Under the pieces are notes generated by a model. That model searched no databases. It was not told the DNA's origin and saw nothing but the letters and a program-made list of their open reading frames with translations. A program made the translations under genes and the position numbers. A stretch of DNA of 36,647 bases from an uncultured Intestinimonas sp. (GTDB lineage Bacteria > Bacillota > Clostridia > Oscillospirales > Oscillospiraceae), in the NCBI RefSeq assembly GCF_944387245.1, contig NZ_CALXEE010000013.1, positions 1-36,647 on the forward strand, read 5' to 3'. Shown in pieces: positions 1 to 35,339 of this stretch (its first letter is position 1; each line of letters starts with the position of its first letter).

Positions 1-57
1 GACGTAAAGAGCATCCTGGAGACTCTGGAGAAGGAGCTGGGCGCTATCCTGCGCTAA
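1..57 (+). CDS. 3' end of an unidentified upstream gene (partial)
   Basis: The window opens inside a reading frame that encodes [18 protein letters not shown] and stops at TAA 55-57. Eighteen residues, acidic and helical in character, are too few to name the protein. In Firmicutes, alaS is commonly the gene before ireB, so an AlaS C-terminus is possible by synteny only. The same tail is encoded again at 228-284 with nine differences, on the far side of a hairpin-rich noncoding element, so this copy is the one attached to the real gene. The 5' part lies outside the window. Confidence 0.6.
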
Positions 58-227
58 AGCCCTCGGCCTCCTCTTGGGGCCCCGTGCAGCGGGGCGCACG
101 TCTGTGCGTACAAGCATCCCGGCTCTAGCCGGGATCTTGGCGCAAGGCGGAATTCATTTCCGCCGCGCAGGTTTGATCGCCCTCGGGCCCCCGCAAATGC
201 TCTGCATTTGCGGGAATGGCCGACGCC
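58..227 (+). mobile_element. Multi-hairpin noncoding element A
   Basis: Five successive stem-loops follow the stop codon: 79-95, 95-108, 116-135 (9-bp stem), 146-164 (7-bp stem, loop TTCAT) and 191-213 (10-bp stem). The linkers are CAAGC (111-115), CTTGGCGCAAG (136-146, itself able to form a small hairpin) and GCGCAGGTTTGATC (165-178). The same order of stems and linkers occurs on the minus strand at about 7651-7752 (element B). There the linkers are identical or nearly so, while the stem sequences differ but still pair. It lies in sense orientation directly after a stop codon and is followed by a second copy of that gene's last codons. No protein or transposase is encoded. The mobile-element label is inferred from the second copy and the flanking duplication. 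Confidence 0.65.
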
Positions 228-7502: not shown

Positions 7503-7528
7503 TCTTTGTCCGTTTCTGATTTCAGCTT

Positions 7529-7615
7529 GCCACTGTTTACTTCAGCTTGCCCTGCTCCCGCAGCGCCTGGACGGTATCGGGCAGGCCCCACAGATTGATA
7601 AAACCGGTGGCGTCG
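7529..7615 (-). repeat. Duplicated argG 3' end (copy 2, 87 bp)
   Basis: The segment matches 7763-7849 at 85 of 87 bases. It covers the last 25 codons of argG ([20 protein letters not shown] and the following GKLK end), the stop codon and eight bases beyond. The two differences are one at the stop-proximal Lys codon and one silent change. It lacks a start and is not a gene. Beyond its far end, about 13 bases (GGCAAGCTGAAAT) repeat the argG end a third time before the sequence diverges, which suggests an earlier similar event. Confidence 0.9.
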
Positions 7616-7762
7616 CTCCCCAGCGCCACAGCCGCCGGGGGCCCCTTGGATCTCATTTGCGCGGGCGAAGTGAATTCGCCCTTGCGCCAAGGTTTTCGCT
7701 GCGCGAAAACGCTTGCACGGCGCACCTGCGCCGTCCCGGCCTTGCCGGGGGACCAGTACGAC
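7616..7762 (-). mobile_element. Multi-hairpin noncoding element B
   Basis: Read on the minus strand from just after argG, it holds a stem at 7735-7749, a stem at 7717-7734 (8 bp), the linker CAAGC (7711-7715), a stem at 7692-7710 (8 bp), the linker CTTGGCGCAAG (7681-7691), a stem at 7663-7681 (7 bp, loop TTCAC) and the linker GCGCAAATGAGATC. Element A has the same order with the 5-base and 11-base linkers identical. The third stem is entirely different in sequence yet still paired. The fourth shows matched swaps on both arms (GGCGGAA/TTCCGCC in A, GGGCGAA/TTCGCCC in B). It is flanked by an 87-bp duplication of the argG end. Mobility is inferred; no protein is encoded. Confidence 0.7.
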
Positions 7763-7770
7763 GCCACTGT

Positions 7771-8997
7771 TTATTTCAGCTTGCCCTGCTCCCGCAGCGC
7801 CTGGACGGTATCGGGCAGGCCCCACAGATTGATAAAGCCGGTGGCGTCGTCCTGGTTGTAGTCGCTCTCCTCGAAGGTGACCAGATCCTCAGAGTAGAGG
7901 GTCTCGGGAGAGGTGACGCCGGCATTGATGATGTTGCCCTTGTAGAGCTTGAGCTTCACGGTGCCGGTGACATGCTCCTGGGTCTTGTCGGCAAAGGCGC
8001 TCAGAGCCTCCCGCAGGGGGGTGAACCACTTGCCGTTATAAACCAGATCTGCGAAGTCCACCGCCAGCTTGGCCTTCATGTGGGCGATATCCTTGTCGAT
8101 GGTGATCATCTCCAGCACCTCGTGGGCGTGGTAGAGGATGGTGCCGCCGGGGGTCTCGTACACGCCCCGGTCCTTCATGCCCACCAGCCGGTTCTCCACG
8201 ATGTCCAGCAGACCGATGCCGTTCTCGCCGCCCAGCTTGTTGAGCTTGCGGACGATGTCGCTGGCCTTCATTTTCTCCCCGTCGATGGCCACGGGCACAC
8301 CCTTGACAAACTCCAGGGTGACATAGGTGGGCTTGTCCGGGGCGGCGATGGGGCTCACGCCCATCTCCAAAAAGCCCTCCTTCTCATAAAGAGGCTCGTT
8401 GGAGGGGTCCTCCAGGTCCAGGCCCTCGTGGGAGAGGTGCCACAGGTTCTTGTCCTTGGAGTAGTTGGTCTCCCGGCTGATCTTCAGGGGGATATTGTGG
8501 GCCTCGGCGTAGTCAATCTCCTCTTCCCGGCCCTTGATATCCCACTCACGCCAGGGAGCGATGATCTTCATCTCGGGAGCAAAACGCTTGATGGCCAACT
8601 CGAACCGGACCTGGTCGTTACCCTTGCCAGTGCAGCCGTGGCAGATGGCGTCGGCCCCCTCCTTCTTGGCGATCTCCACCAGCCGCTTGGCGATGATGGG
8701 CCGGGCAAAGGCGGTGCCCAGCAGGTACTGCTCGTACTTGGCCCCCATCTTCATGGAGGGGATGATGACCTCATCCACCATCTCGTCGGTGAGATCCTCC
8801 ACATAGAGCTTGGAGGCTCCGGTCTTGAGGGCCTTCTCCTCCAGGCCGTCCAGTTCGGTGCCCTGGCCCACGTCGCCGGAGACGGCGATGACCTCGCAGT
8901 TGTTGTAGTTCTCCTTCAGCCAGGGGATGATGATGGATGTATCCAAGCCGCCGGAATAGGCGAGTACGACTTTCTTGATGTCCTTGTGATCTGTCAT
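7771..8997 (-). CDS. argG: Argininosuccinate synthase
   Basis: Joins citrulline and aspartate using ATP; about 408 residues. The N-terminal PP-loop AYSGGLDTS identifies the family, and [15 protein letters not shown] is the characteristic ATP/aspartate region. First gene of the arg operon. I chose ATG 8997 because GGAGG stands 8 bp ahead; the ATG five codons upstream overlaps that ribosome site. Directly downstream are element B and a second copy of the gene's 3' end. The retained copy is intact, so the insertion did not damage the enzyme. Confidence 0.96.
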
Positions 8998-9031
8998 GGT
9001 GAACGCCTCCATGTCTTTCGATGTTGGACAC

Positions 9032-27557: not shown

Positions 27558-27635
27558 ACCAAAACAGCACCCGGCAAAGGCCGTGCACCGTTTCAACAGA
27601 CTGCTCTCAGCGGAAGACATCTCTGTTCTCATTCA

Positions 27636-27812
27636 ACCAAGCAGGTTTCCTGGCTCACGGATCGCCGCGGGCCGCGCCTTCTCACCGCGCCCTGCGCGGC
27701 AATGGCATCTGCGGCTCGCTCCCCGTTCACAGTGACCGGATCGCTCGGGACTCTCACCCGATTCCCTTTTACCCCAGCCGGAGCTGGGCACTTGCCGAAT
27801 ATGTAGTTGTGA
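27636..27812 (-). promoter_or_regulatory. Cobalamin (adenosylcobalamin-type) riboswitch
   Basis: Read on the minus strand, the segment holds the B12-box pattern GAGCCAGGAAACCTGC (27641-27656), GGGAATCGGGTGAGAGTCCC (27749-27766 region) and GGTCACTGTGA, in the expected order. Length (about 175 bases) and the position ahead of btuF fit the family. It identifies the downstream ABC importer as a corrinoid transporter. Confidence 0.92.
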
Positions 27813-27911: not shown

Positions 27912-27951
27912 AAGAAAGAAGCGCATCGCAAGTGAAACACTTGCGATGCGC
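27912..27951 (-). terminator. Terminator of tRNA-Arg copy 2
   Basis: A 14-bp perfect stem (27921-27951) directly abuts the tRNA CCA end, followed by a U-rich stretch. Confidence 0.85.
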
Positions 27952-28028
27952 TGGTACGGCTGAAGGGATTCGAACCCCCGACCTACTGGTTCGTAGCCAG
28001 TCACTCTATCCAGCTGAGCTACAGCCGC
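27952..28028 (-). tRNA. tRNA-Arg(ACG), copy 2
   Basis: A complete 77-base cloverleaf with encoded CCA. The acceptor is GCGGCTG/CAGCCGT, the anticodon arm ACTGG-CTACGAA-CCAGT (anticodon ACG, read as ICG) and the T arm GGGGGTTCGAATCCC. It decodes CGU, CGC and CGA after A34-to-inosine editing by TadA. The mature sequence is identical to the copy at 28201-28277. Confidence 0.97.
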
Positions 28029-28068
28029 TTGTCGCCTTCCAGGAAATTCTCCCTGACAGTTAAATCTT

Positions 28069-28097
28069 ATTTTATAGCATATTCCGCCAATTGTCAA
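28069..28097 (-). promoter_or_regulatory. Promoter of tRNA-Arg copy 2
   Basis: On the minus strand, a perfect TTGACA (28092-28097), a 17-bp spacer and TAAAAT (28069-28074). Confidence 0.8.
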
Positions 28098-28160
28098 GTG
28101 CTATTTAGGGCGCAGCCCCTTATTTTTATCTATGTTATGTTTTAAAGAAGGCGGTCAAGG

Positions 28161-28199
28161 AAGAAAAAAGCGCATCGCAAGTAAAATACCTGCGATGCA
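28161..28199 (-). terminator. Terminator of tRNA-Arg copy 1
   Basis: A hairpin at 28170-28199, related to but less perfect than that of copy 2, abuts the CCA end and is followed by a U run. Confidence 0.8.
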
Positions 28200-28200
28200 C

Positions 28201-28277
28201 TGGTACGGCTGAAGGGATTCGAACCCCCGACCTACTGGTTCGTAGCCAGTCACTCTATCCAGCTGAGCTACAGCCGC
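28201..28277 (-). tRNA. tRNA-Arg(ACG), copy 1
   Basis: Same 77-base sequence, anticodon and encoded CCA as copy 2. The flanks (leader CTGACAG, hairpin terminator) are similar but diverged, so the whole transcription unit of about 249 bp was duplicated and the tRNA kept identical. Confidence 0.97.
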
Positions 28278-28315
28278 TTACTGTCTTCAGAGATGTTGTC
28301 CCTGACAGCCAGATT

Positions 28316-35217: not shown

Positions 35218-35249
35218 ATGGCCTGCAAGGCGGCCCTGAAGGGCTGCCC

Positions 35250-35312
35250 CGGGGAATGAAGTGCTCCCCTGGCCACGGCCTGAACCGCTGAAAAGCTGAT
35301 GACTTCTGCAAT
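35250..35312 (+). promoter_or_regulatory. Fluoride riboswitch (crcB motif)
   Basis: The aptamer has GGGGAATGAAGTGCTCCCC (35251-35269), matching the GGGnGAUGnnnnnCnCCC hairpin. GAACCGCTGAAAAGCTGATG (35283-35302) follows, matching the conserved AACnGCnnUGAAAAGnnCUGAUG block, and then ACTTCTGC. GAAGT in the first loop can pair with ACTTC, the family's long-range pseudoknot. A small extra hairpin (GGCCACGGCC) is inserted between the two blocks. The right half also forms one arm of the terminator, so fluoride binding should permit readthrough. Confidence 0.82.
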
Positions 35313-35339
35313 TTCTTTGCAGGAGCATCAGCTTTTTTT
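35291..35339 (+). terminator. Riboswitch-controlled terminator
   Basis: AGCTGATG and CTTCTGCA pair with TGCAGGAG and CATCAGCT, followed by seven T. The 5' arm contains the conserved aptamer block and the pseudoknot strand, so terminator and aptamer exclude each other. Confidence 0.88.

Follow-up and report, generated by a model that had tools for sequence, protein, structure and literature searches.

A repeated multi-hairpin element between duplicated gene ends in gut Oscillospiraceae, probably a non-autonomous mobile DNA

The window analysed here, 36,647 nucleotides (nt) long, is one whole contig (NZ_CALXEE010000013.1, hereafter C13) of the genome of an uncultured Intestinimonas sp. (GCF_944387245.1), and it carries two copies, A and B, of a multi-hairpin element, each located between two copies of the end of a protein-coding gene. 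The contig starts inside the first (U) copy of the pheT 3' end (1–57, plus strand, stop codon TAA at 55–57); a second contig of the same genome, C44, overlaps the first 77 bases of the window on the other strand and holds the remainder of pheT, which is assigned by NCBIfam TIGR00472. Element A opens with an inverted copy of the pheT sequence GAGGAGGCCGA (63–73), an exact 11-nt reverse complement of a site on C44 that lies 15 to 5 nt upstream of the sequence opening the window; the start of the second pheT copy falls within GAGGAGGCCGA. There follow hairpin 1, of the GGGGCCCC type (76–95), hairpin 2 (94–108), stem 3 in the frame CAAG C ... CTTG (111–139), hairpin 4 with a GAATTCA loop and GCGC/GCGC closing, succeeded by a conserved tail (140–168), and hairpin 5, the 3' terminal hairpin region, which forms the 3' end of the element (179–214), all on the plus strand and all delineated by folding, with covariation as additional evidence for stem 3 and hairpin 4. 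The second (D) copy of the pheT end occupies 218–284 and has its own stop codon (TGA, 282–284).

Element B, on the minus strand, has the same layout at argG. Its U copy (7763–7849, stop TAA at 7773–7771) is the translated end of the argG open reading frame (ORF) 7771–9012, and the inverted copy (7752–7767) is complementary to argG 7841–7856 at 15 of 16 positions. Folding then gives hairpin 1 (7734–7752), hairpin 2 (7718–7733), stem 3 in the same CAAG C ... CTTG frame (7688–7715), hairpin 4 with its GAATTCA loop (7659–7687) and hairpin 5, the 3' terminal hairpin (7616–7645), after which comes the D copy (7529–7615, stop TAA at 7539–7537). The two argG ends flanking B are 87 nt each and 98% identical. 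On the 3' side of the second one, at 7518–7528 (minus strand), lies a remnant of yet another argG end, AAGCTGAAATC, suggestive of an older or double event.

An earlier note on this DNA, made from the sequence alone, had placed A at 58–227 (plus) and B at 7616–7762 (minus), with a common order of stems, identical CAAGC and CTTGGCGCAAG linkers, and a shared GAATTCA hairpin and GCGCAnnTnGATC tail, all of which we recover. Its four stems become five hairpins in both A and B, plus the 5' inverted copy of gene sequence; the element proper of A stops at about 217, and 218–284 is the second pheT end. The position it described, after stop codons, is correct insofar as a gene end precedes the element, and incomplete insofar as the gene end is duplicated on both sides. 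The duplicated ends and the inverted copy of the insertion point had been overlooked, and together they shift the interpretation to mobile DNA. Both elements fold better than any of 200 shuffled sequences each (z = −6.2 for A and −3.8 for B). The element is about 130–170 nt long (128–171 nt in hand-trimmed copies, with one truncated copy of 76 nt), and hairpin 1 is missing from some copies other than A and B. An Rfam scan of A and B returned no family at the gathering threshold, in line with the statement of the note that no named family was recognised; under permissive settings, the best weak match of A was psaA (19 bits of 50, E = 0.023), and five more loci gave two antisense Thermales-rpoB matches (22 and 20.9 bits of 77.3, E = 0.43 and 0.97), which overlap the 3' part of the element and the second gene end in locus L022.

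A and B are two members of a repetitive family of hairpin DNA elements found in gut bacteria. Searched with A as the query, the own genome (a 2.31-Mb draft of 136 contigs, 82% complete) gave 18 matches, and a covariance model (R1; 90 positions) built from 13 own-genome copies, which match it by construction, found 41 places at E ≤ 1, or about 40 copies. At E ≤ 0.01, R1 matched 22 of 60 genomes (the own genome and 59 relatives), five of which hold only one or two matches with the best E above 1e-8; the covariance-model search of related Oscillospiraceae that the earlier note had proposed as a check thus yields many further copies. By rank, matches were obtained in 11 of 11 genomes of the genus (1–49 each), in 10 of 26 from the rest of the family (1–28 each, some weak) and in 1 of 23 from outside the family but within the order; of 101 genomes drawn from the whole phylum, 3 matched, namely, the own genome, one genome of the same family and one with a weak match (E = 0.002). 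A pattern scan of named genomes found at least 114 stretches, under titles that include Flavonifractor, Pseudoflavonifractor, Intestinimonas, Dysosmobacter, Oscillibacter, Evtepia, Enterenecus and unnamed Oscillospiraceae or Clostridiales. Most of the genomes are draft assemblies, in which contigs often break at these repeats, and the named loci partly overlap the genus genomes (apparently, L197 is G006 and L183 is G032). Genome G042, 98% complete, has 78 core matches, and in it the core also forms tandem arrays with a period of about 118 nt (for example, contig C12:9233–9675, and contigs C37 and C38). A search of plasmid records with A gave no match. B matched two records labelled as phage, MT838705 and MT837775, the former of which contains a 526-amino-acid ORF whose translation resembles, by eye, peptide chain release factor 3 and, judging from this ORF, is probably a bacterial scaffold; a match in IMG/VR (L226) has the element in the same position as a Pseudoflavonifractor isolate contig (L145).

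In the own genome, 30 of the 36 testable copies are flanked on both sides by copies of one gene terminus (arrays were counted singly, five more copies are at contig edges, and L052 and L053 are perhaps one copy because of contig overlap); the duplications are 42–151 nt long, and 247 nt in one array pair. In the loci from named genomes and IMG/VR, 125 of 130 copies were usable (the other five are too near the end of the locus), and 94 of these 125 score above 60 for duplication, compared to a median of 20 in control pairings (at most 125), of which three exceed 60 and one is at 60. The duplication is 36–155 nt long in 92 of the 94 copies and the second copy begins 36–55 nt past the core in 76, that is, at a fixed distance, whereas the 5' distance is scattered from 20 nt (the floor of the script) to 102 nt in 89. 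When 77 of the 94 copies were classified by reading frame, 68 followed a frame ending in a stop codon in the sense of the element (66 of these are open on the other strand, too), eight fitted an antisense frame only, including lepA- and arcC-like gene starts, and one fitted neither; gene names other than argG and pheT were read by eye. The element most often sits between two gene termini, with the gene still reading to a stop or keeping its start. Assembly artefacts are an unlikely source of the duplicated ends because these occur in the single-contig genome G008 and in the seven-contig genome G004. At five loci (L058, L061, L066, L068 and L078), the core is seen without gene-end duplication but with a GGGTGGAGC...AACCC stretch and a terminator-like hairpin, and some of these cores adjoin apparent tRNA genes.

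Differences between the U and D copies were counted in 61 of the classified copies (seven gapped ones and the nine not in sense were left out) and are strongly concentrated in third codon positions (46, 29 and 174 at positions 1, 2 and 3, respectively); 184 are synonymous and 65 are not, and the frame of D is open in 58 of the 61. Given that the differences are mainly synonymous and the frame is nearly always open, the displaced copy D was functional until recently: a copy stranded behind a stop codon by a remote insertion would not show this pattern.

Shortly before the hairpins, on their 5' side, there is a segment that is the reverse complement of the stretch of gene where the second copy starts. 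This inverted copy scores at least 9 in 54 of the 94 duplicated copies (17 of 470 in mismatched pairings); the own genome reaches this score in 23 of 30 copies, a count without a control. In an enlarged set (114 of 181 copies, after identical cores with their 60-nt flanks were counted once), the score is at least 9 in 74 copies and below 8 in 30; nine of these 30 show a match of at least 11, mostly in the same place, when more upstream DNA is allowed. The geometry of the junction, obtained from 51 of the 94 copies, is such that the inverted copy, 8–20 nt long, extends at the median from −5 to +8 relative to the D junction and covers both sides of it in 45 of 51; in other words, the 3' end of the element joins the gene inside the sequence complementary to the element's own 5' arm. 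When the arm was compared with its own gene and with the orthologous site in another genome, 56 of 86 ordered same-site pairs showed the better match to the own gene, 6 the poorer and 24 an equal one (the pairs are not independent); the pairing is almost entirely Watson-Crick (935 of 961 cells, in alignments chosen for matching). The base preference at the junction is weak (G in 66% at −2, in 62% at 0 and in 57% at +1, 114 copies), and part of it may reflect chance extension of the alignments.

Comparison of alleles within the genus shows empty sites. The argG gene lacks the element in six of the nine genus genomes in which argG was found, and empty alleles exist in sister species for argG, typA-like and uvrB-like genes and three other genes. 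For six genes, 20 filled and 30 empty alleles of genus genomes, sorted by eye since the script had missed variants, were compared at an alignment score of at least 30 (scar alleles of G003 and G006 at gene g6, G008 at g5, and G007 at argG and g3 were left out, some further alleles were also excluded, and three secA regions lie outside this analysis). The DNA after D aligns to the intergenic DNA of an empty allele in 10 of the 20 filled alleles, and the DNA after U in none. This polarity, together with the spacer that follows U but is missing after D, led us to set aside a simple target-site duplication, although de novo insertions may start as one. At uvrB, the U and D variants of the own genome appear exchanged in G005, both of whose copies switch close to the stop codon; at the gene of L043, the spacer and the inverted copy are identical and the element is nearly identical between the own genome and G001, and the tails after D are each native-like (both by eye). 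These two patterns, the ones shown among the few loci at which exchange between copies was compared, are what one exchange through the duplicated segment would give, via a circle or via an insert looped out in annealing. Tandemly repeated units were seen at secA, at uvrB in the single-contig genome G008 and at serC, where they agree at 130 of 130 nt, and scar-like remains are found at g6 in G003 and G006, where only the stop codon, the inverted copy and the start of hairpin 1 are kept, which looks like element loss, and in the second uvrB copy of G003. The core subtype is mostly constant for a gene (82 of 96 pairs, compared to a shuffled mean of 37 and a maximum of 54 in 2000 shuffles that ignore relatedness), and a single genome may hold several subtypes. 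Some genes recur as sites of the element: a lepA-like start in six loci, at one codon to within about 1 nt, and typA-, uvrB-, serC- and aspS-like genes and argG in three to six loci each.

Covariation of the stems was analysed in an alignment of 128 matches from 100 named loci, fitted to R1, which favours pairing, with statistics computed on 123 distinct rows. Standard pairs make up 98.2% of the pair cells, and 18 of the 24 pairs are changed on both sides; there are 526 doubly changed cells compared to 178 in shuffles, and the covariation score is 0.473 against 0.131 for shuffled alignments (0 of 500, with a shuffle that ignores relatedness), a signal that is lost when partner columns are slid along. 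The covarying stems of the earlier note are hence well founded, but they do not justify the note's conclusion that matched changes imply a selected RNA or single-stranded DNA structure. The arms of inverted repeats are homogenised by template switching, a mutational process described in a yeast study (PMC8604942), and matched stem changes therefore need not mean selection. The inverted copy of host codons is an internal example of an arm tracking its partner. Even so, the conserved unpaired linkers suggest selection. The model-fitted alignment contains 35 G.U and 11 A.C cells, whereas a model-free count over stem 3 and hairpin 4 gives 7 and 11, respectively. Because template switching can produce matched changes and the strand counts differ by method, we do not claim a functional RNA; more generally, compensatory covariation in palindromes need not signal one.

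Candidate partner enzymes were profiled across the same 60 genomes, 22 with and 38 without the element, many of them from one genus. Reverse transcriptase (RVT_1) is present in 6 of 22 and 12 of 38, respectively, is absent from the element-rich, near-complete genomes G020 and G042, and was not found in the drafts G000, G001 and G009. The Y1 transposase (Y1_Tnp, PF01797) has the same counts (6 of 22 and 12 of 38) and is absent from G004, G020 and G042. A RAYT-like protein occurs in 10 of 22 genomes with the element, seven of the ten in one genus, and in 6 of 38 without it, and is absent from the element-rich, near-complete genomes G004, G032 and G042 (one query, E of 1e-5); the IS110 DEDD transposase (PF01548) occurs in 7 of 22 and 3 of 38 and was not found in G000, G008, G020 and G042. 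The latter two families are weakly enriched in element-positive genomes, relatedness being ignored, and are missing from element-rich ones; none of the four occurs in every element-rich genome, and all four candidates were rejected or left unsupported as partners. In several genus genomes, a RAYT-like gene (NF047646, below the cut-off) lies downstream of a uvrB-like gene (L362–L366, L369), as on contig C75:2767–3264 of G000 (L365), the own-genome copy having an in-frame TAG. The element is found between the uvrB-like and RAYT-like genes in G000, G005, G006 and G008, and a scan of 28 RAYT loci gave five element matches in four loci, all at this junction. An RNA-guided nuclease appears an unlikely partner, since the intact first copy of the gene is itself a match for the arm; no search for such nucleases (IscB, TnpB, Cas9) was made.

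We hold, with moderate confidence, that A and B represent a non-autonomous mobile DNA element, composed of an inverted copy of the insertion point and up to five hairpins, which creates, or brings with it, a working gene terminus and then spreads by recombination through the duplicated ends. If events took this order, the element would insert as DNA or via a DNA intermediate, perhaps circular or single-stranded; on entry into a gene, its 3' end would be joined where the 5' arm can pair, a working terminus would be made or brought on its 5' side, the native terminus would be displaced downstream, and the arm would be written, or kept matched, by copying the host gene. The cassette of gene end and element could then reach the same gene in related species by homologous recombination through the duplicated ends, and cassette loss and tandem amplification could proceed likewise. 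Several observations weigh against this interpretation. Half of the filled alleles (10 of 20) matched no empty allele with the DNA after either D or U; 31 of the 125 copies are without a clear duplication, and in G020 and G042, 11 of the 14 inspected copies lack a flanking pair of gene ends, so that duplication is not obligatory for the core, and the gene-end form may be a specialised branch of an element whose core can live without it. The spacer of up to about 50 nt on the 5' side of the inverted copy is missing after D at L116, L130 and L216 even where the coding copies are identical. Finally, none of the four enzyme families tracks the element, and G042 lacks all four at the thresholds used. 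If the interpretation is correct, Flavonifractor, Intestinimonas, Pseudoflavonifractor and related common gut bacteria carry a small mobile DNA that spares housekeeping genes, and the second, working gene end left or brought by it is the reason these genes survive its entry. It would account for broken assemblies and stray gene-end copies in these genomes, serve as a natural marker of interspecies recombination, and raise the problem of how an element without a protein picks a codon-precise site and copies that site in inverted form.

A sharper form of this interpretation, guide-directed homing, posits that the arm pairs with the target, directs insertion into the paired segment and is later corrected to the codons of the new host, so that each lineage would enter one and the same gene again in further species. 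The location of the junction inside the complementary segment (45 of 51), the recurrence of certain genes among the loci, including the lepA-like start, the prevalence of one subtype per gene and the better fit of arms to their own gene (56 vs. 6) are all compatible with it. However, an arm-using nuclease would attack its own host gene, the first copy of which is intact and matches the arm, and G000, G008, G020 and G042 lack IS110, the only family of RNA-guided recombinases that was tested. We regard such homing as possible but doubtful, and only tentatively entertain its fullest version, a self-reprogramming, terminus-replacing element whose arm finds conserved codons, whereupon the element would enter, supply the terminus, rewrite the arm and home across species.

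Three other explanations were weighed. The element could be a structured RNA of the 3' untranslated region (UTR), such as a terminator, an mRNA stabiliser or a processed small RNA, with the duplications arising as by-products of recombination between hairpins. The strong covariation, the conserved unpaired linkers and the excess of G.U over A.C cells (35 to 11) in the model-fitted alignment would fit such an RNA, as would the stop-ending sense frames of 68 of 77 copies, a non-exclusive argument given that 66 of these are open on the other strand; yet, that excess is not seen in the model-free count (7 to 11), keeping a gene intact requires sense orientation in any case, presence of the element at a given gene is patchy inside one genus, and the inverted copy straddling the junction of the second copy is left unexplained, so we consider this account unlikely. 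Somewhat harder still to credit is an origin without any mobility of its own, through template switching during replication and ordinary recombination, with homogenisation of arms producing both the covariation and the inverted copy. It agrees with the finding that the inverted copy pairs almost wholly by Watson-Crick rules (935 of 961 cells, in alignments selected for matching) and with the scar-like remains at g6 in G003 and G006 and in the second uvrB copy of G003, but some amplifying process is required to explain about 40 dispersed copies whose linkers are conserved and whose 3' ends lie at a fixed distance. Target-primed reverse transcription, with D as a long target-site duplication and the inverted copy as a 5' scar resembling twin priming, would explain this fixed-distance 3' end, the variable 5' side and the duplications of 36–155 nt in 92 of 94 copies; it seems very unlikely to us in view of the distribution of RVT_1, missing from G020 and G042 and not found in the drafts G000, G001 and G009, and of the failure of DNA after U to match an empty allele in any of 20 cases.

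Elsewhere in the window, two tandem tRNA-Arg (ACG) genes lie in a 148-nt direct duplication, 90% identical (27912–28308, minus), and a cobalamin riboswitch (27622–27810, minus) and a fluoride riboswitch (35243–35315, plus) are both above the Rfam gathering score. In L023, away from the element (2496–2617, minus), there is a sub-threshold sX11 match (42.5 bits of 70, E = 3e-5).

Among known systems, MITEs, BOX, RUP, ERIC and Correia repeats are small, non-coding, multicopy and intergenic, as is the element described here. MITE membership was rejected: the inverted repeat of the element is host-gene sequence rather than a constant terminal inverted repeat, the 5' side is variable, and the duplications are long, with no short constant target-site duplication. 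REP sequences are palindromes of 20–40 bp with a GTAG or CGTC tag at one end (PMC3733652). Like REP and REPIN sequences, which are associated with RAYT (TnpA_REP), the element is high-copy, dispersed, palindromic, extragenic and non-autonomous, and in four genomes it lies between a uvrB-like gene and a RAYT-like gene; unlike them, it comprises up to five hairpins instead of one short palindrome and comes with gene-end duplications, and a RAYT-like protein is encoded in fewer than half of the element-positive genomes. REP/REPIN membership was rejected on length (128–171 nt) and hairpin number (five in A and B). Membership among target-primed retroelements, IS200/IS605 derivatives and IS110/bridge RNA elements was rejected as well, on the occurrence of RVT_1, PF01797 and PF01548, respectively, in genomes with and without the element and on their absence from the element-rich genomes listed above.

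Other likenesses concern the architecture. Group I and II introns, OMEGA systems and bridge RNAs use a guide or exon-binding segment complementary to both sides of the insertion point, and the element likewise has a short segment complementary to both flanks of its insertion; it differs in having no Rfam match at threshold and no protein, and in leaving the complementary site intact in the first copy. Helitron and IS91 rolling-circle elements (PMC4778049) resemble it in having one hairpin end and another end able to include host sequence. No description of the element was found in the open-access literature, in the parts available to the search, which did not extend to most subscription papers or to any bioRxiv preprints. 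To our knowledge, an inverted copy of the insertion point is not a recognised feature of Helitron or IS91 elements. Some integrative elements restore the 3' end of the gene that they enter, using a recombinase at one att site. Here, too, the element side gives the working terminus and the native one is displaced, but many genes are involved, every one of them with a terminus of its own, and a recombinase gene would not fit into so short an element; this architecture appears to be an undescribed route by which mobile DNA can get into a gene and leave it unbroken.
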